Source: Homoserinibacter sp. GY 40078 (GTDB lineage Bacteria > Actinomycetota > Actinomycetes > Actinomycetales > Microbacteriaceae). From it: DNA of 64,000 nt. The stretch lies in the NCBI RefSeq assembly GCF_008017545.1, contig NZ_VRTZ01000001.1, positions 640,081 through 704,080 of the forward strand, given 5' to 3'. How positions within the stretch are numbered: position 1 is the stretch's first letter; every line of letters begins with the position of its first letter. Below the pieces are notes generated by a model. That model was not told where the DNA came from, did no database searches, and saw only the letters and a program-made list of their open reading frames with translations. Below, one piece after another: positions 32,300 through 41,106 of this stretch. Position numbers and translations under genes: made by a program.

Positions 32300-32303
<4 letters not shown>
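30885..32303 (-). CDS. Phytoene-desaturase-like FAD oxidoreductase
   Basis: 472 residues of the COG1233 family (CrtI-like). An N-terminal FAD Rossmann motif VVVGAGPNGLVAAAALAEAG, the GGALRTEEVTLPGFRHDIGA region and a C-terminal ALPAGGSHGMGGWNVARTVL (FAD-proximal GG) are present. Such proteins include retinol-saturase-type and PYROXD2-like oxidases; substrate unknown. Start GTG 32303 overlaps the copA stop by 4 bases (GTGA), making it the fourth gene of the copZ-ctaG-copA unit. It is distinct from CrtI (48898-50454). Confidence 0.8.
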
Positions 32304-34515
<2,212 letters not shown>

Positions 34516-34519
<4 letters not shown>

Positions 34520-36558
34520 CGTTCGCCTCCCGGGGCGCTTCCCACGCCCGCGGCGCCGCGGCGTTCCGCGAGCTTGGCGAGCATGTCGTTGTAGGCGTCG
34601 AACTCGTCGTCGAGTCCACGATCGAGGTGGCGGTCGGTGCGCGTGGCCTCCCGCTGATCCTGCCGGGCCCACTGGATGCCGAGCGCGATGACGACGATCA
34701 GCAGCGGCAGCTCGCCGCCCGCCCACGCGACGCCGCCGCCCAGATACTGCGACGCCATCAGGTCGTCGGCCCACGGCTGGTCGAGCGAGAGGTAGTAGTT
34801 CTCGGCGATCGGCGTCGTGGCGGTCATGAGGGCGATGCCGAAGAAGGCATGGAACGGCATCGCGGCGAGCACGAGGCCGAGCTTGCCGAGCGGCGGGAGC
34901 GGACGCGGGGGCCGGTCGACGCCGATCACGAGCCAGTAGAAGAGGTACCCGACGATCAGGAAGTGCAGGTTCATGAGCTGGTGCGCCCAGTGGTACCGCA
35001 CGGCGTCCTCGAAGATCGAGGAGAAGTACAGGCCGTAGTACGAGCCGATGAAGAGCACGAACACGACGAGCGGATTGGTGAGCACGCGCAGCAGCGGCCA
35101 GTGCATGACCCGCACGATCCACTCGTGCATGCCGTCGGCCGCCGGCGCACGGCGCGGGGTCGTGGCCCGCAGCAACAGAGTCACGACACCGCCGAGCGAG
35201 AGCAGCACCGGGGCGAGCATGTTGAGCCCCATGTGCACGATCATGTGGACCCCGAAATCGGAGCCCGAGTACATGCCGAATCCGGAGCTCGTCGCCACGA
35301 CCACGACGATCCATCCGAGCACCCACGAGATCGTGCGACCGAGGGGCCAGCGCACGCCCTTGCCCCGAGCCGACCGGAGGGCGACCAGGTAGACCGTGAT
35401 CCCCGCGGTCGCGATGACCGCGAACAGGATGTTGAGACGCCAGCCGCCGACGAGCGTCGCGAAGCTCGGGGCGTCCGGTAGCTCGAACCCCAGGAAGACC
35501 TGGCTGATGCTCGTGGGCACGAAGTACTGCGGCGGCGGGATGCGCGTCATCACCACGGTCAGCGCCACGAACGCGGATGCCAGCACAGCGCCCGCGGCAA
35601 GCGCCCGGCCGATCCGGCGGTCGGTGAGGCGGCCACGGCGCCACGCGACGGCGCACGCTGCGGCGATCCCGCCCGCCACCACGTCGACCGCGAGGCGGAG
35701 CGCGATCAGCAGCCCCGTCGGAGTCGCCGCGAATTCGCCGCCCACGAGCTTGAAGCCGGCGAGCACGAGTTCCGACGCGATGATGAGCGGGAAGGCGACC
35801 GCGAGCACCGCACCCGCGCGCCCGAGCGTCTCGGGTCGGAGCAGGCGACCGGTCGCGCGACGGATCGCCAGCACGACCGCGACCCCATACGCGACGGTCC
35901 CCGAGACGGCCAGCAGCACGCCGGCATCCGACCCGAAGTCGTGGCCCGGGCCGACGAGGATCTGCCCGACCACGATGGGTGCGAGCAGGGCGATGGCCGA
36001 CGCCCAGAGGGCGATGAGCAGCGTGCGCCAGCGCGAGGCGAACGCGATCACGCCGAACGCCAGGAACCCGGCCGCCGCCGTGATGATCCATGCCTGCGGC
36101 AGGTAAGCGGCCTCCACGAGGAAGCCGAGACCGCCGGGCTCGAGGAGTCGCGCGAGCGGCTGACCGTTCGCATCCGCCGCGTCGACGGCGACGAGCACGG
36201 TGGCCGTGAGCGCCCAGACGAGCGAGGAGATACGGGCGATGCGCCATTCCGGCTCGGCGGCGAGGGGGAGTCGGGAGGGACGCGGGCGGGCGAGTAGGAA
36301 CAGCAGCGCGACGAGGCTGCCGATGGTGAGCATCGAGGCGAGCTCGACCACGACGCGCAGGCCGGTGGAGAGCACGGAGATCTCGAGTCCCGGGTATCCG
36401 CGGAAGATCGCGTCGTAGGGGGTGGTGCCGAGCGCGACGACGGTCGCGAGGGGGACGCCCAGAGCGATGACGGCGGCGGCGATGCCGACCGTCAGCGGAA
36501 CGGCCACCGGTCTGCGGCCGGTGGCGTGGTCGTAGGCGGGCAGCTCGGTGGTCGTCAC
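34516..36558 (-). CDS. ctaG: CopD-CtaG fused copper import / cytochrome oxidase assembly protein
   Basis: 680 residues, about 13-15 TM. The first half is CopD-like (FLVEAAYLPQAWIITAAAGF, GHDFGSDAGVLLA); the second is caa3_CtaG with the His-rich elements FGVHMIVHMGLNMLAP, HWAHQLMNLHFLIVGYLFYW and AMPFHAFFGIALMTATTPI. It is expected to deliver or take up copper for oxidase assembly. GTG 36558 overlaps the copZ stop by 4 bases, so copZ-ctaG-copA are coupled. A histidine-poor paralogue lies at 19618-21186. Confidence 0.88.
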
Positions 36559-36761
36559 GGGCGGATGCTGTAGCCCGCGTCGTCGACGGCGGCGGAGACG
36601 GCCGCCTCGTCCAGCACGCCCTCGAAGTCGATCGACGCGGTCTCGGTGAGGAGGTCGACGCTCACGCCGGTCACGCCCGGTACACCCTGAATCGCACCGG
36701 CGACGGCGGCACGGCAGTGGCTGCAGCTCATCCCGTCGACGTGGCGTTCGATCGTGGGCAT
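36555..36761 (-). CDS. copZ: Copper chaperone CopZ-like HMA protein
   Basis: 68 residues, one HMA domain, MPTIERHVDGMSCSHCRAAV with the Cu-binding CSHC at about 13-16 and the ferredoxin-like fold signature GVPGVTGVSVDLLTETA. It passes Cu(I) to CopA, encoded two genes downstream. First gene of the unit; GAGGAG lies before ATG 36761. The promoter's -10 coincides with the operator at 36811-36823. Confidence 0.92.
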   Translation of the reverse strand: MPTIERHVDGMSCSHCRAAVAGAIQGVPGVTGVSVDLLTETASIDFEGVLDEAAVSAAVDDAGYSIRP

Positions 36762-36807
36762 TGGGGTCTCCTCACGGGTGGCGCCGCGGGTTCCGGCGCG
36801 ACCCCTA

Positions 36808-36823
36808 ATTCTACATCCGGTAG
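36808..36823 (-). promoter_or_regulatory. copZ operator-promoter, BlaI-type (site 1)
   Basis: Read in the direction of copZ: CTAC-CGGAT-GTAGAAT. The inverted repeat CTAC/GTAG has a 5-base spacer and its downstream half merges into a -10 box TAGAAT (+ strand 36808-36813). The TSS would lie near 36800, 40 bases before the copZ start. Repressor proposed: the BlaI-family protein at 39903-40274. Inferred from four matching sites. Confidence 0.72.
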
Positions 36824-36852
36824 TCGAGGCGCCCGCTGGATGGTAGCTTCTT

Positions 36853-36868
36853 CTACGTTCAGTAGAGA
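36853..36868 (+). promoter_or_regulatory. Operator upstream of the DUF5134 gene (site 2)
   Basis: CTAC-GTTCA-GTAG (36853-36865) runs into TAGAGA (36863-36868), a weak -10, before the ATG at 36893. Same orientation and spacing relative to transcription as the copZ, ycnI and blaI sites, in the shared divergent copZ/DUF5134 intergenic region. Confidence 0.68.
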
Positions 36869-36892
36869 CGGCGTTCGGGAGGCGGAGGCTCG

Positions 36893-37450
36893 ATGCTCCA
36901 CGATCCCGCCGTGGCCTGGGTGTTCACCGTGATCTTCGGGGCGACCGGCGTCTACTCGGTCGTGCTGACGATCATTGACCGCCGCCTCATCGAGCGGGTC
37001 ATGCACGGCCTGCACATCCTGATGTCGCTCGCCATGATCGCGATGGCTTGGGCGCTGTCGGTGCCGACTCTCCCGCAGGTGCTCGTGTTCTCGATCGGGG
37101 CGCTCTACTGCGCGGCGATCTGGGTGCGCTCCTTGCTGCGCGGAGGCACGGGTATCGCCGAGCATCCGCCGTGGATGCTCGGCTATCACGCGCTCATGAT
37201 GCTCGCCATGGTCTGGATGGTCGCGCCTGGCACGGCGGGCCAGCATGTGACCCTTCCGGCGGCGCTCGCCGCGACCGGCGCGCTGGGTGCCGCGGGGCTC
37301 TACGCGGGGGTGGCGGTCGCGGTGGCGGATGCGGCGGTGTGCCTTGTGCGTCGTCCGCCGCGTACGGCGTTGCACGTCTCCGACGACGTCTCCACCGCCG
37401 CGATGGGTATCGGTATGGGTGCGATGACCCTGGCGATGGCGTTTGCGTGA
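36893..37450 (+). CDS. DUF5134 multi-pass membrane protein
   Basis: 185 residues with five or six TM helices and the HGLHILMSLAMIAMAW plus CAAIWVRSLLRGG segments of actinobacterial DUF5134. Several Met and His residues lie in or beside the helices (LMSLAMIAMA; GYHALMMLAMVWM), which could coordinate Cu(I). Divergent from copZ and carrying its own copper-type operator; function unknown but copper-linked by context. Confidence 0.78.
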   Translation: MLHDPAVAWVFTVIFGATGVYSVVLTIIDRRLIERVMHGLHILMSLAMIAMAWALSVPTLPQVLVFSIGALYCAAIWVRSLLRGGTGIAEHPPWMLGYHALMMLAMVWMVAPGTAGQHVTLPAALAATGALGAAGLYAGVAVAVADAAVCLVRRPPRTALHVSDDVSTAAMGIGMGAMTLAMAFA

Positions 37451-37466
37451 CCGCCGATGCAGTACT

Positions 37467-37482
37467 CTACTGAATGTAGAAC
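37467..37482 (+). promoter_or_regulatory. Operator upstream of ycnI-copCD (site 3)
   Basis: CTAC-TGAAT-GTAG (37467-37479) merging into TAGAAC (37477-37482) about 40 bases before the ycnI start. On the complementary strand the core reads CTACATTCAGTAG, which shares ATTCA/GTTCA centres with sites 2 and 4. Confidence 0.7.
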
Positions 37483-37522
37483 TACGGGGTCCCGCCCCGC
37501 GACCGAGAGGATCCTGCCCCGC

Positions 37523-38245
37523 ATGACGAAGTCCCGCTTCGCCGCCGCATCCGGTGCCGCCGTTCTGGGCGCTGCCGCGCTCACGCTGCTGGCCGCCCCG
37601 GCGGCGTTCGCCCACACGACCGTCGAGGCCACCAGCACAGCCGCTGGCTCGTACACCGTGCTCACCTTCGCCTCCGGACACAGCTGCGACGGTTCGCCCA
37701 CGACATCGTTCACCATCGACCTGCCGGACGGCATCAACGCCGCGAGCCCCGAGATCCTGGCCGGATGGAAGGTCGAGAAGGTCATGGAGACACTCGACAC
37801 CCCCATCACCGACAGTCACGGCAACGAGCTCACCGAGCGCGTCAGCCAGATCGTCTACACCGCCGACACTCCGTTCCCCGAGGGATTCCGGGTCTCGTTC
37901 GACGTCTCGCTGCAGCTGCCCGAGGACGCCGCCGGCGAGACGCTCTACTTCCCGACCGTGCAGCAGTGCGAGGAGGGGTCGAACGACTGGATCGAGATCC
38001 CCGCCGACGGACAGGACGACGAGGAGCTCGCGAGCCCCGCGCCGGCGTTGGAGGTCACGGAGGCGGTCGACGACGAGCACGGACACGGCGACGCCGCCGA
38101 GACCGAGCACGCGGAGGGCGAGCACGCCGACGAGGTATCCGACTCCTCGCCCGCCCTCGCGGTCGGCATTGCGGGTCTCGCGGTCGGGGCACTCGGTCTG
38201 GTAGTCGCCCTCGTCGCCCTGCTGCGGAGGCGTCCCGCGGCGTGA
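37523..38245 (+). CDS. YcnI-family copper-associated secreted protein (DUF1775)
   Basis: 240 residues. A signal peptide ends APAAFA (about residue 30), leaving His as the mature N-terminus, the known Cu(II) site of DUF1775 proteins. Then a beta-sandwich, an acidic/His-rich linker (DEHGHGDAAETEHAEGEHAD, about 186-208) and a C-terminal TM helix plus Arg tail. Often found with copC-copD. Its stop overlaps the copCD start (GTGA). Confidence 0.85.
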   Translation: MTKSRFAAASGAAVLGAAALTLLAAPAAFAHTTVEATSTAAGSYTVLTFASGHSCDGSPTTSFTIDLPDGINAASPEILAGWKVEKVMETLDTPITDSHGNELTERVSQIVYTADTPFPEGFRVSFDVSLQLPEDAAGETLYFPTVQQCEEGSNDWIEIPADGQDDEELASPAPALEVTEAVDDEHGHGDAAETEHAEGEHADEVSDSSPALAVGIAGLAVGALGLVVALVALLRRRPAA

Positions 38246-39858
38246 CCTCCGGCATACGCGTCTCGAGATGGCGAGCAGGGCGACTCCTGCTCGCCATCTC
38301 GGCGTGTCTGCTCGCGGTCCTGCTGCCGGCGGCACCCGCATCGGCCCATGCCGACTTCCTGGGCTCCGACCCGGAGGACGGCGCCGCCCTCGAGGTCGCG
38401 CCCGTCGAGGCGACCCTGCGCTTCAGCGAAGACGTCACGGTCGCCGCGGGTGGCATCCGCCTGTTCCGCGTCGCGGCCGACCCCGTGCCGCTCGTGACGA
38501 CCTCGCGCGACGGCGTCGTGACGGTCGAACTGCCCGAGCTCGCCGACGACGCCCGGTACGTGATCGCGTGGGAAGTCGTCTCGGTCGACAGCCACCCGAT
38601 CGCCGGCACCATCTCGTTCAGCGTCGGCGACCCTCCGCCTGGAGCCGGACCCGTCGTGCCGGATGTGGGCGGAGCTGCGACGGTGCGCACCGCCGTGCTC
38701 GGCACCGCATCCGCCCTGCAATACGCGGCAGCGCTGCTCGTGTCGGGCCTGCTGTTCTTCGAGGCGGCGGCCCTTCGTCGGCGGATCGGCACGCGCGCGT
38801 CGCGCGTCGTCGTGCTCTCGGGCGCCGCGCTCGCCGCCGTCGCGGGGGCTGTCGTGACGGTCGCCGCGGAACTCACCTGGCAGAGCCTCGTCAGTGCCGC
38901 GCTGCTCGTGGTCTCGGCGGTGCTCGTCGTGGTCACGGTCGGTCGCCCGCGCGCGATCGTGCCACTCACGGTCTCGCTGCTCGCCCTCGTCGCTCCGGTG
39001 CTCCTCGGGCACAGCGCCACGACCGAGCCGCGCGCGCTCGTGGTCGTGAGCGACCTCGTGCACCTCGCGGCGGGCGCGGTGTGGTTCGGCGGGATCATCG
39101 GCATGCTGCTCTTCTTGATCCAGGCGTCCAGATCGGAGCGCGACCGATCCGCCGCGGACGCGGTCTCGACGGCGCAGGTCGTCGCGCGCTTTTCGGGATA
39201 CGCCGCCGTCGCGGTCGGCGCGCTGATCGTGTCGGGAACCGTCATGGCCGTGGCGATCCTCGGAGGTTGGGCCCCCCTCGTCGAGACGGTCTACGGGCTC
39301 CTCCTCCTCATGAAGCTCGGCGTGGTGGCGATCGCGCTCGGCGTCGCGGGCTGGAATCGCGTCCGTCTGGTGCCGGTCGTCCGCGCCCGCCCCACGGCGG
39401 CGGCCGCGTGGCGCCTCATGCGCGCCCAGCTGCTGCGCGAGGCGGCCGTGGTGCTCGTCGTGCTCGCCGCGACCGGGTTCCTCACGAGCCAGAGTCCGGA
39501 TGCGGTGCGCGGCGGGAGTGCGGCGGCCACGCCCGCGTCGTCGGAGGTCGCGGCGTCGGCGGATGGAGTCGAACTGTCGGGGGAGGCGCTGCAGGGCGAC
39601 GACATCACGGTGCTCGTGTTCACGCTCGTCGATGACGACGGTGCGCCGATCGAGCCTGTCGAGCCGCCGACCGTGAACTCCCGGCTCCCGAGCGAGGATC
39701 TCGGACCGTTCACCGTCGAGGCGGAACCGACGGGTGTGCCGGGCGAGTTCCGTGCCGAGGCGCGCACCCCCTACCCGGGCGAGTGGCGGATCACCGTGGG
39801 CGTCCGGCTCACGACCTTCGACCAACGGACGCTGCTGGTCGAGACGACCGTCCCCTGA
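38242..39858 (+). CDS. CopC-CopD fusion with C-terminal beta domain
   Basis: 538 residues. After a signal peptide ending APASA, mature CopC begins HADFLGSDPEDG (N-terminal His as Cu ligand) with VDSHPIAGTISFSV as the second site. The CopD part, about residues 150-430, has eight TM helices (LVHLAAGAVWFGGIIGML). A final roughly 95-residue region ending PYPGEWRITVGVRLTTFDQ resembles a FixH/YtkA-like beta-sandwich. Predicted to import copper across the membrane. Coupled to ycnI by a GTGA overlap. Confidence 0.87.
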   Translation: MTSGIRVSRWRAGRLLLAISACLLAVLLPAAPASAHADFLGSDPEDGAALEVAPVEATLRFSEDVTVAAGGIRLFRVAADPVPLVTTSRDGVVTVELPELADDARYVIAWEVVSVDSHPIAGTISFSVGDPPPGAGPVVPDVGGAATVRTAVLGTASALQYAAALLVSGLLFFEAAALRRRIGTRASRVVVLSGAALAAVAGAVVTVAAELTWQSLVSAALLVVSAVLVVVTVGRPRAIVPLTVSLLALVAPVLLGHSATTEPRALVVVSDLVHLAAGAVWFGGIIGMLLFLIQASRSERDRSAADAVSTAQVVARFSGYAAVAVGALIVSGTVMAVAILGGWAPLVETVYGLLLLMKLGVVAIALGVAGWNRVRLVPVVRARPTAAAAWRLMRAQLLREAAVVLVVLAATGFLTSQSPDAVRGGSAAATPASSEVAASADGVELSGEALQGDDITVLVFTLVDDDGAPIEPVEPPTVNSRLPSEDLGPFTVEAEPTGVPGEFRAEARTPYPGEWRITVGVRLTTFDQRTLLVETTVP

Positions 39859-39867
39859 CCCCACATT

Positions 39868-39883
39868 CGACATTCCGTAGAAT
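39868..39883 (+). promoter_or_regulatory. Operator upstream of blaI-M56 (site 4)
   Basis: CGAC-ATTCC-GTAGAAT (39868-39883) has a one-base-degraded upstream half-site and a -10 TAGAAT (39878-39883). The regulator gene starts 20 bases later, indicating autoregulation. The weaker half-site suits a promoter that must stay partly active. Confidence 0.65.
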
Positions 39884-39902
39884 CGACCCCCAGGAGGTAC
39901 TC

Positions 39903-40274
39903 ATGGCCGGCATCCGGACGCGCGCGAAGGGCGAGCTCGAGGGTGAGATCCTGCGCGTGCTGCGCAGCCACGAGGCCCCGGCGAGTGCCGCGGAAATCCA
40001 GGATGCGGTGCCCGGCATCCGCCCCGCGCTCACGACCGTGCTGACCGCTCTCGAGCGGCTGGTCGAGAAGGGCGAGGTGCTGCGCTTCGCGGAGTCGCCC
40101 CGCCGGGTGCGCTTCCAGGCCGCCCTCAGCGAGGTCGAGAACGCGAGCGAACTGATGCGCGGTGCGCTGGTCGGCGTCGACCGCCGTGCGGCGCTGCTGC
40201 AGTTCGCGGGCGACCTCGCAGACGACGATGTGGCTTTCCTTCGCGACGCCCTGACCCGACGGGGGAAGCGCTGA
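39903..40274 (+). CDS. BlaI/MecI/CopY-family repressor
   Basis: 123 residues, BlaI-type winged helix: GELEGEILRVLRSHEAPASA, EIQDAVPGIRPALTTVLTALERLVEKGEVLR (helix-turn-helix and wing). A C-terminal dimerisation helix ends in the DDDVAFLRDALTRRG segment. It lacks the CXCXXXXCXC metal motif of CopY, so copper sensing would have to come from the partner M56 protease rather than from metal binding. AGGAGG lies just before ATG. The proposed target is CTAC-N5-GTAG sites upstream of copper genes. Confidence 0.85.
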   Translation: MAGIRTRAKGELEGEILRVLRSHEAPASAAEIQDAVPGIRPALTTVLTALERLVEKGEVLRFAESPRRVRFQAALSEVENASELMRGALVGVDRRAALLQFAGDLADDDVAFLRDALTRRGKR

Positions 40275-40275
40275 G

Positions 40276-41106
40276 GTGATCATCGCGCTGGCGCTCGTGG
40301 GCCTGACCGTTGCGACGGTCTGGCTCGCTCCGCGTCTGCTGACCCTCGGTCACTGGCAGGTGCGCTTCCCGCGGCTGGCGCTCGCGGCATGGCATGCCGC
40401 GCTGCTTGCGGGGGTGGCGGCACTCGTCGCGAGCGTCGTGGTGTCGGTGCTCGTGGCGGTCGGCGCGGCCGGTGCCTCCGGGGCGACGGCCGGGACCGAG
40501 GGGATCGTGGCGACGGTCGCCGGGTGGACGGCTCTGCTCGTGGTGGGCGCGCTTGCCGCGCTCGTCGCCTCGCGTCATGAGCTGCTCGTCGATATGCAGG
40601 AGTCGGAGCGCGACGCGGTACTGGCGGCACCGCACGAGGTGCTCGCCACGGAAGGGCGCACAGAGCTGATCGTGTCGTCGATCGATCGGCCGTTCGCGTG
40701 CGCCGTGCCGGGCCGGTCGCGGGCCATCGTGGTGTCCGCGGGGTTGCAGCGGCTGCTTTCGCCCGCCCAGCTCGGTGCCGTGATCGAGCACGAGCGCGCG
40801 CATCTTGTCGGCCGGCATGCGCTCGCGGTGCGCCTCGCCGACCTGAACGCCGCGTGCCTTCCGGGCCTGCGCGCCCCGCGAGAGCTGCGCCGCACGACCC
40901 GCCTGCTGCTGGAACTCATCGCCGACGACCATGCCGCGCGCCGTGCGGGTGCCGCGCATCTCGCGAACGCTCTCGTGCGTATCGCCGAGGTCGAGACCAA
41001 CCCGGCGGCGGAGTTGCGCGCGGCGCGGCTCGAGGGCCGACGGTGGCGTCCCGCCCGAGCGGCATCCCGATCGAGCGTGTTGCGCGCCGCCGTCGGCGCC
41101 CGCTGA
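40276..41106 (+). CDS. M56-family membrane metallopeptidase (BlaR1-type protease domain only)
   Basis: 276 residues, four hydrophobic segments and a zinc protease site HERAH in AVIEHERAHLVGRHA. It is the protease half of BlaR1; the roughly 260-residue penicillin-sensing domain is absent, as in many actinobacterial BlaI-partnered M56 genes. It would cleave the repressor encoded immediately upstream when copper or another signal is perceived. GTG start, one base after the blaI-like gene's stop codon. Confidence 0.85.
   Translation: MIIALALVGLTVATVWLAPRLLTLGHWQVRFPRLALAAWHAALLAGVAALVASVVVSVLVAVGAAGASGATAGTEGIVATVAGWTALLVVGALAALVASRHELLVDMQESERDAVLAAPHEVLATEGRTELIVSSIDRPFACAVPGRSRAIVVSAGLQRLLSPAQLGAVIEHERAHLVGRHALAVRLADLNAACLPGLRAPRELRRTTRLLLELIADDHAARRAGAAHLANALVRIAEVETNPAAELRAARLEGRRWRPARAASRSSVLRAAVGAR

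Follow-up and report, generated by a model that had tools for sequence, protein, structure and literature searches.

The window, the whole stretch of 64,000 nucleotides of Homoserinibacter sp. GY 40078 analysed here, harbours a copper gene locus composed of a copZ-ctaG-copA unit, a DUF5134 gene, a ycnI-copCD unit and a blaI-M56 gene pair (Table 1). The ATPase of the copZ unit matched the Pfam families E1-E2_ATPase, Hydrolase and HMA, scored above the cut-off of the Cu-translocating model TIGR01511 (500.7 bits vs. 397), and exhibits a CPC motif when its translation is read by eye; P1B ATPases such as this one are commonly labelled exporters. The CopZ-like protein reached 65.2 bits with the CopZ model NF047957, below the cut-off of 85.

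Table 1. Genes and putative operator-promoters of the copper locus (positions in the window).
Feature	Position	Strand	Basis
Copper-type P1B ATPase, CopA-like, N-terminal HMA domain, last gene of the copZ unit	32303..34492	-	
Large CtaG-domain membrane protein, 680 aa, CtaG domain at residues 389-633	34519..36558	-	Pfam Caa3_CtaG 2.7e-78
CopZ-like copper chaperone, first gene of the copZ unit	36555..36761	-	Pfam HMA 5e-13
Putative operator-promoter of copZ-ctaG-copA, CTACCGGATGTAGAAT	36808..36823	-	exact CTAC-N5-GTAG
Putative operator-promoter of the DUF5134 gene, CTACGTTCAGTAGAGA	36853..36868	+	exact CTAC-N5-GTAG
DUF5134 protein	36893..37450	+	Pfam DUF5134 3.4e-16
Putative operator-promoter of ycnI-copCD, CTACTGAATGTAGAAC	37467..37482	+	exact CTAC-N5-GTAG
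YcnI-like DUF1775 protein	37523..38245	+	Pfam DUF1775 4.9e-41
CopC-CopD fusion, YcnJ-like	38242..39858	+	Pfam CopC 6.2e-17, CopD 2.6e-16
Putative operator-promoter of blaI-M56, degenerate upstream half, CGACATTCCGTAGAAT	39868..39883	+	CGAC-N5-GTAG
BlaI-family repressor, 123 aa	39903..40274	+	Pfam Penicillinase_R 6.5e-11
M56-type membrane metalloprotease, 276 aa, HEXXH at residues 172-176	40276..41106	+	

The BlaI-like protein is the single match to the Penicillinase_R family in the whole genome (43 bits vs. a cut-off of 22.6, residues 10-118). Foldseek comparison of its structural model (pLDDT 77.8, pTM 0.58) with the PDB only identified M. tuberculosis Rv1846c as the nearest entry (2g9w, 30% identity, 3.8e-6), together with S. 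aureus BlaI (5.9e-5) and MecI (6.3e-5), MarR-type proteins trailing from 6.6e-4. The predicted fold of the repressor is that of BlaI/MecI. None of its 123 residues is a cysteine, and the earlier note was correct in stating that this regulator lacks the cysteine metal site of CopY, the CxC motif being absent.

That the partner encoded beside blaI is of the M56 type was also borne out, its predicted fold being nearest to BlaR1, with an HEXXH motif. Structure comparison of the protease model (pLDDT 89.5) with the PDB only placed five BlaR1 entries on top (best 8exs, Z 12.9, rmsd 5.4, 215 residues), M48 enzymes next (Z ≤10.3) and unrelated rows at Z ≤5.8, while plain Foldseek against the same database had no hit within E 0.001, with 8exs reaching E 0.019. 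The only Pfam family recovered at E 0.001 was Peptidase_M48 (1.3e-5, 25.5 bits vs. a cut-off of 20.3), and the modelled enzyme may be kin to M48. Residues H172, E173, H176, E213 and D217 are invariant in a 26-row protease alignment. The protein has about three hydrophobic stretches within its first 104 residues and stops at residue 276, right after the protease part, with no C-terminal sensor domain.

All four 16-mer palindromes by which the earlier note had linked the copper transcription units were found in the window sequence at the positions given there (36808-39883). Their common design, given as CTAC-N5-GTAG for each, holds for the copZ, DUF5134 and ycnI sites but not for the blaI site, which differs by one mismatch (CGAC-N5-GTAG). 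Likewise, a 3' half-site running into the -10 was found at two of the four, with a -10-like TAGNNT at the copZ and blaI sites (TAGAAT) but not at the other two (TAGAGA, TAGAAC). Among 31 oriented sites, 27 from relatives and 4 from the window, TAGNNT occurs 18 times on the downstream side and 8 times on the mirror side. Searching the window for CTACN5GTAGA with up to one mismatch returned 12 strand-matches, 8 of which are the four sites counted on both strands, against 2.32 expected (sd 1.75; 100 shuffles, largest count 8). Over the whole genome (2,976,585 bases, or 2.98 Mb), exact matches are restricted to the copper locus, with 5 strand-matches corresponding to three window sites vs. 44 for the reversed control pattern; allowing one mismatch yielded 721 matches per strand, too unspecific for use. 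The palindromic TAC/GTA sites are putative targets of the BlaI-like protein.

Comparisons across genomes tied the palindrome to the protease. Across a sample of 249 genomes from the family, TCTACN5GTAGA was detected in 130 of 140 genomes with an M56 homologue and in 14 of 109 without, a test that pools copper and non-copper M56 types as well as related genomes and therefore backs a BlaI-M56 operator rather than a link to copper. In a set of 37 genomes, CTACN5GTAGA occurred in all 29 with an M56 homologue, and the eight congeners had neither an exact site (0/8) nor an M56 homologue (0/8). A 100/98 branch divides the 40-row group that includes the window and its clade from the remaining 41 M56 rows; 13 Curtobacterium rows inside this branch lack both copper genes and sites in their neighbourhood. 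Alignments took 25 of the 26 named clade proteins for M56 (L116 omitted) and 22 of 26 for BlaI (L116, L118, L126 and L131 omitted).

Copper-gene homologues were identified in 21 of the 26 named loci of this type, and tblastn of the fetched stretch found none in the remaining 5. These loci contain 38 exact CTAC-N5-GTAG sites, compared with 2 and 3 for the N4 and N6 spacer controls, and 27 of the 38 lie at the starts of copper-gene homologues or blaI (DUF5134, 8; blaI, 5; CopCD, 5; CopZ, 4; CtaG, 4; YcnI, 1). Orthologous copper loci in a dozen named genera thus carry the sites, whose absence there would have spoken against the earlier proposal. An exact site is missing from 4 of the 26 loci, all of which have a site with one mismatch ahead of blaI or CopZ. 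In 5 of 26 loci the site preceding blaI is exact; 12 further blaI regions have a degenerate upstream half (6), a degenerate downstream half (1) or no site within one mismatch (5). Sites at blaI being this patchy in relatives, autoregulation is not general.

In relatives the site also adjoins PepSY_TM, Peripla_BP_2, ABC-3 transporter and CopC-like genes, and in one relative (G128) two sites lie between CopZ and a homologue of ScoE (E 2.9e-110 to 6dch). It is not confined to copper genes there, since other sites of G128 adjoin genes for a ketoacyl synthase III and for an Ig-domain protein. ScoE was found in 1 of the 249 genomes. A complete chalkophore cluster in G128 was rejected, Pfam showing glycosyltransferases beside ScoE, with ketoacyl synthase III and carrier-thioesterase genes farther away; from its sequence, the chalkophore-type content claimed for this relative is just the ScoE-type oxygenase. 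Such a cluster was also rejected for the window's genome, in which a ScoE homologue was not found at E 1e-40. The loci L092-L097 carry sites and no evident copper gene, and among the 11 sites left unassigned in the 26 loci, no target could be named for 3. That some sites in relatives adjoin genes lacking a copper link would fit a real circuit whose M56 protein senses a step downstream of copper, such as cytochrome oxidase failure or envelope stress, the copper genes being one output. This explanation draws further on the absence from the M56 protein of any part plainly binding copper, and on Cys194, located at the end of the helix after the HEXXH helix, which is type-specific (19 of 26 proteins of this M56 type vs. 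0 of 54 others) yet not universal. M. tuberculosis BlaI is also reported to regulate ATP synthase genes (PMC5874750, PMC7924339). However, most assigned sites across genera stand at copper-type genes, and we regard a downstream signal as improbable.

The palindromes might instead belong to CsoR or to an unseen factor, with blaI-M56 a mere neighbour. CsoR-family proteins are encoded in 37 of 37 genomes tested, including two in the window's genome, and the palindrome occurs in the 14 family genomes without a detected M56 homologue mentioned above. The earlier note had named a CsoR or CueR protein controlling these promoters from elsewhere as grounds for abandoning its proposal, and this genome does encode a CsoR whose Cys/His/Cys residues are of the copper type. 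It adjoins a CPH-motif ATPase, and this unit is preceded by a GC-rich palindrome of a different kind; a pattern search for ACCCC-N2..10-GGGGT gave no match in the window. CsoR control of the copper-locus promoters was rejected, since CsoR-family genes occur in all 37 genomes, the eight congeners without exact sites included, and the palindrome type that precedes CsoR's own unit was not found in the window by that pattern search. Sites and M56 homologues, moreover, largely co-occur, and ownership of the sites by another regulator is highly improbable. The CsoR/CPH-ATPase unit could handle excess copper in the window's genome.

Copper supply reads better than resistance as the role of the regulon, a reading that relies on gene content. 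It is suggested by the metallophore-uptake genes and, once, the ScoE-type gene lying by the sites in relatives, and by the separate CsoR-ATPase unit; the same importer, metallophore and ScoE-type neighbours, together with that unit, weaken copper resistance as the main role. The P1B ATPase of the copZ unit, of a kind commonly labelled exporter, counts against the supply reading. Mycobacterial isonitrile chalkophore genes are induced under copper starvation (PMC9600254), and the B. subtilis CopC-CopD protein YcnJ aids oxidase function at low copper (PMC13344008). The B. subtilis YcnK-YcnJI system shares CopC-CopD and YcnI supply genes with the window and differs in its regulator, the repressor YcnK, and the SigC/nrp chalkophore genes of M. 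tuberculosis share a chalkophore and a P-type ATPase with the systems discussed here and differ in being run by the sigma factor SigC.

Several BlaI-type systems resemble the one in the window. The staphylococcal BlaI-BlaR1 and MecI-MecR1 pairs have the same repressor fold, an HEXXH membrane protease, adjacent genes and palindromes at promoters; the window differs from them in lacking a penicillin-binding sensor domain and in having copper genes in place of beta-lactamase. Lactococcal, streptococcal and enterococcal CopY, which is not known to need a protease partner, is of the BlaI-type family and has palindromic TAC/GTA operators before copper genes. Identity with CopY was nonetheless rejected, as the repressor is cysteine-free (no CxC) and the spacing is wrong, the window sites being one base longer than the cop box, TACA-N2-TGTA, quoted as TACAxxTGTA in a passage of PMC5772342. 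Rv1846c, the best structural match of the repressor, is the BlaI of M. tuberculosis, which also targets beta-lactamase; copper genes are not among its targets in the reported passages.

Based on the sites, their confinement to the locus and conservation, the gene content, the predicted folds and the tie between sites and M56 homologues, we consider it fairly probable that the locus is a copper-supply regulon run by BlaI-M56, most likely on at low copper, beside the separate CsoR unit. A BlaI-type dimer would bind the four TCTACA-N3-TGTAGA-like palindromes, each on or next to the promoter -10, and repress copZ-ctaG-copA, DUF5134, ycnI-copCD and blaI-M56. The M56 protease, without the penicillin sensor of BlaR1, would signal copper status via its membrane or protease part and destroy or inactivate BlaI, releasing the four units together. 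YcnI and CopC-CopD would then take copper in at the cell surface, CopZ and the ATPase would pass it on, and CtaG would load the respiratory oxidase. We infer BlaI binding, proteolysis and copper as the signal; induction when copper is short is the likely direction.

The earlier note, describing BlaI-M56 pairs as known for beta-lactams, had left out a copper-controlled precedent, PetR-PetP of Synechocystis. PetR is a BlaI-type regulator degraded by the copper-activated BlaR1-type protease PetP (PMC7896320), and the two are described, in a passage of PMC13421787, as a copper-controlled regulator-protease pair. Here as there, a BlaI/CopY-type factor and an M56/BlaR1-type membrane protease are encoded together and the targets are copper-related, a likeness drawn from published descriptions of PetR-PetP. 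PetR-PetP switches between plastocyanin and cytochrome c6, PetR also activating petJ, whereas the window's system belongs to another phylum, would target its own genes as well as those for copper uptake, a chaperone, an ATPase and oxidase assembly, and possibly has the opposite sign. Were the sign that of PetRP, copper would activate M56, ample copper would lead to degradation of BlaI, and the genes would serve copper handling, oxidase loading or resistance in replete cells. PetP being itself copper-activated, contrary to the low-copper direction, is one argument for this; others are an operator at the -10, which suits a repressor relieved by copper, and the presence in the regulon of a copper-type P1B ATPase and CopZ, which are usually copper-inducible. 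Set against these are the importer, metallophore-uptake and ScoE-type genes at like sites in relatives and the separate CsoR/CPH-ATPase unit, with its own palindrome, that could serve excess copper, and we judge the PetRP sign rather unlikely. The low-copper direction, developed into a full actinobacterial starvation switch, is a tentative proposal that we hold as plausible, somewhat short of even: copper would hold M56 off, opposite to its effect on PetP, and shortage would lead to destruction of BlaI and turn on import, chaperoning and oxidase assembly, joined in some lineages by chalkophore-type and metallophore-uptake genes, and Cys194 is a candidate for one element of the copper sensor.

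To our knowledge, little is known of how actinobacteria sense copper shortage; regulators that respond to it include the sigma factor SigC in actinobacteria and the repressor YcnK in Bacillus. Among the matches listed in open-licence PMC text, there was no report of actinobacterial copper control by BlaI-M56. A copper-controlled pair of BlaI-type factor and protease is already known in cyanobacteria, and the arrangement described here appears to recur in related genera. If the proposal is true, a sensor-less BlaR1-type protease and a cysteine-free BlaI would run copper supply in about a dozen named genera, carrying proteolytic copper control beyond cyanobacteria into actinobacteria. The regulon would then be readable from sequence through its TCTACA-N3-TGTAGA sites, and the DUF5134, PepSY_TM, FecB-type and ScoE-type genes would become further candidates for copper uptake.

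All four operator sites proposed in the earlier note were located in the sequence where it had placed them, and three carry exactly the CTAC-N5-GTAG design it had assigned to all, but the blaI site reads CGAC-N5-GTAG. With up to one mismatch allowed, the 14-mer CTACN5GTAGA gave 12 strand-matches in the window versus 2.32 expected, a number reached by none of 100 window shuffles, and a 13-mer at the same tolerance occurred at 15 places in the window, four of them these sites. The genome-wide scan suggested in that note (2,976,585 bases, 3 contigs) returned five exact matches to the 14-mer, both strands counted, which are restricted to three of the four sites with none elsewhere, versus 44 for a reversed control pattern. 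The genome has a single Penicillinase_R match and a single homologue of the window's protease.

A pattern search of 37 genomes found CTACN5GTAGA in 29/29 picked because an M56 homologue is present, and in none of the other eight, which are congeners without M56 homologue at E 0.001; two of these congeners show a weak, partial Penicillinase_R match barely above the cut-off. Among 249 sampled genomes of the family, TCTACN5GTAGA occurred in 130 of the 140 in which an M56 homologue was detected (E up to 0.001) versus 14 of the 109 without one (Fisher p 4e-41, a rough guide given that the genomes are related). Since this count takes in a second M56 type, whose own blaI is likewise preceded by such sites but which has no detected copper neighbours, the 249-genome test ties the palindrome to BlaI-M56 pairs in general, with which it would belong. 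Loci of this second type (L064, L066, L067, L069, L072-L074) carry two to four TTCTAC-N5-GTAGAA-like sites in succession upstream of their own blaI or M56 gene. In another sampled genome, G112, the only TCTACN5GTAGA site lies, by eye, directly upstream of a clpX-like gene, with a clpP-like gene near and blaI-M56 not near.

From a scan of named genomes the best 80 loci were retained, and the 26 closest to the window (L109-L133 and L140) fall with it in a group of 40 rows that a 100/98 branch parts from 41 others. No copper genes or sites were seen near the 13 Curtobacterium rows of this group. Tblastn on the fetched stretches detected one or more homologues of CopA, CtaG, CopZ, DUF5134, YcnI or CopCD in 21 of the 26 loci and in 12 of the 54 others, the window's own proteins serving as queries, which favours near relatives. 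Exact CTAC-N5-GTAG occurs 38 times in the 26 loci; spacers of N4, N6 and N8 gave 2, 3 and 18 and the remaining spacers 0 to 5, the N8 count probably because many sites read CTACTAC. Exact site and copper homologue occur together in twelve named genera represented in the 26 loci, so that sites are not absent from orthologous copper loci, the case the earlier note had named as contradicting its regulon. Twenty-seven of the 38 sites lie near a homologue start, from 60 bases inside to 350 bases before it (DUF5134 8, blaI 5, CopCD 5, CopZ 4, CtaG 4, YcnI 1). By eye, four of the remaining 11 stand between DUF5134-like and PepSY_TM-like genes (L112, L114, L121, L132), a pairing across a shared BlaI-type site that suggests that both act in copper uptake. 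One each precedes a DUF5134-like (L124), FecB-like (L111), CopD-type (L133) and ketoacyl synthase III (L117) gene; for the last three no target gene could be named. Four of the 26 loci lack an exact site and carry a one-mismatch version before blaI (L109, L118, L127) or CopZ (L120).

In twelve inspected loci without an exact site at blaI, the upstream half is degenerate (CGAC, CCAC or GTAC) in six, as in the window, the downstream half in one, and nothing within one mismatch was found in five. Judging from these sites, autoregulation of blaI-M56 is not general among clade loci, and a site with a degenerate upstream half may be a weaker autoregulatory operator. The 31 oriented sites, of which named loci supply 27 and the window four, share the consensus tCTACAt..TGTAGAgtta. 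The proposal that the 3' half-site runs into the -10 holds for part of them, TAGNNT lying on the downstream side in 18/31 versus the mirror side in 8/31, a bias that fits a repressor covering the -10.

Pfam matches of the copper locus comprise a P-type ATPase with HMA, Caa3_CtaG, HMA (CopZ), DUF5134, DUF1775 (YcnI), CopC plus CopD, and Penicillinase_R (BlaI). BlaI contains no cysteine, which bears out the view that it lacks CopY's metal site; its model (pLDDT 77.8, pTM 0.58) is closest in a structure search to M. tuberculosis Rv1846c, then to BlaI and MecI. Peptidase_M48 is the protease's sole Pfam match. Its model (pLDDT 89.5) compares best with S. aureus BlaR1 (Z 12.9, rmsd 5.4, 215 residues), and because a Z near 13 can be background among helical proteins, the BlaR1 fold call leans also on HEXXH. 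M48 enzymes come second (Z 10.3 and lower), and plain Foldseek gave no match at E 0.001 (8exs at 0.019). The protease ends at residue 276, and BlaR1's penicillin sensor is thus missing. Histidines 172, 176 and 181 are invariant; among the other Cys, His and Met residues, Cys194 stands out (19/26 clade rows versus 0/54 others), with Cys142 at 15/26 versus 13/54. Cys194 is a candidate part of the sensor, as a lead only.

The nearest known system is PetR-PetP of Synechocystis, in which the BlaR1-type protease, activated by copper, is described as degrading the BlaI-type factor (PMC7896320, PMC13421787, PMC12292863). Copper use of a BlaI-M56 pair, regarded earlier as notable, is therefore not new in kind; no description of such a pair over actinobacterial copper import and oxidase-assembly genes was found among the open-licence literature matches listed. 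The operator of CopY has an N4 spacer, whereas N5 is common to the window's type and the second, non-copper M56 type. The copper locus of the window is unlike that of the genus. The congeners' best CtaG matches are 29-35% identical to the window's, and clade loci have matches of at least 540 residues at 44-58%; the locus was probably gained by the lineage of this genome or lost by its sisters.

In the relative G128, sites precede a CopC-like gene and a DUF5134-YcnI-CopCD unit (CopCD partly by eye), two paired ABC-3-type transporter genes, and a ketoacyl synthase III gene; another is flanked by a gene for an Ig-domain protein and one lacking any Pfam match, and a pair of sites separates CopZ-CtaG (partly by eye) from a TauD-type gene. 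The product of the TauD-type gene is homologous to ScoE (E 2.9e-110 to 6dch), an isonitrile-making enzyme, and is a single case, as ScoE was found in 1/249 family genomes. G064 has a site shared by neighbouring DUF5134 and PepSY_TM genes, placed between the two, a second in front of a Peripla_BP_2 gene, another with a FecCD gene some 1 kb beyond it, and one with no nameable target; stretches around further sites of other genomes (L092-L097) show no evident copper gene. Copper starvation is reported to induce mycobacterial isonitrile chalkophore genes (PMC9600254), and the CopC-CopD protein YcnJ of B. subtilis to support the oxidase at low copper, with a secondary role for YcnI (PMC13344008).

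Coordinates of features discussed in the text
Feature	Location	Source
Copper locus	32303-41106	window
ScoE-like isonitrile oxygenase gene, divergent from copZ, two BlaI-type sites between	L090:13502-14429	G128
Second copper unit, CPH-motif P-type ATPase then CsoR	G000:C2:184490-186746 (L086)	Homoserinibacter genome
TCTACN5GTAGA site upstream of clpX-like gene	L092:7002	G112

The ATPase of the second unit also has a histidine-rich N-terminal part, its CsoR carries the copper-type residues Cys and His-x3-Cys, and a GC-rich palindrome, TACCCC-AT-GGGGGTA, lies in front. CsoR binds palindromes of this kind. Given the uptake-type genes beside the sites in relatives and this separate CsoR unit, we take the BlaI-M56 set to serve copper supply and the CsoR set copper efflux. 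The BlaI-M56 set would then be on at copper shortage, a direction that is opposite in sign to PetP and follows from the supply reading, not from data.
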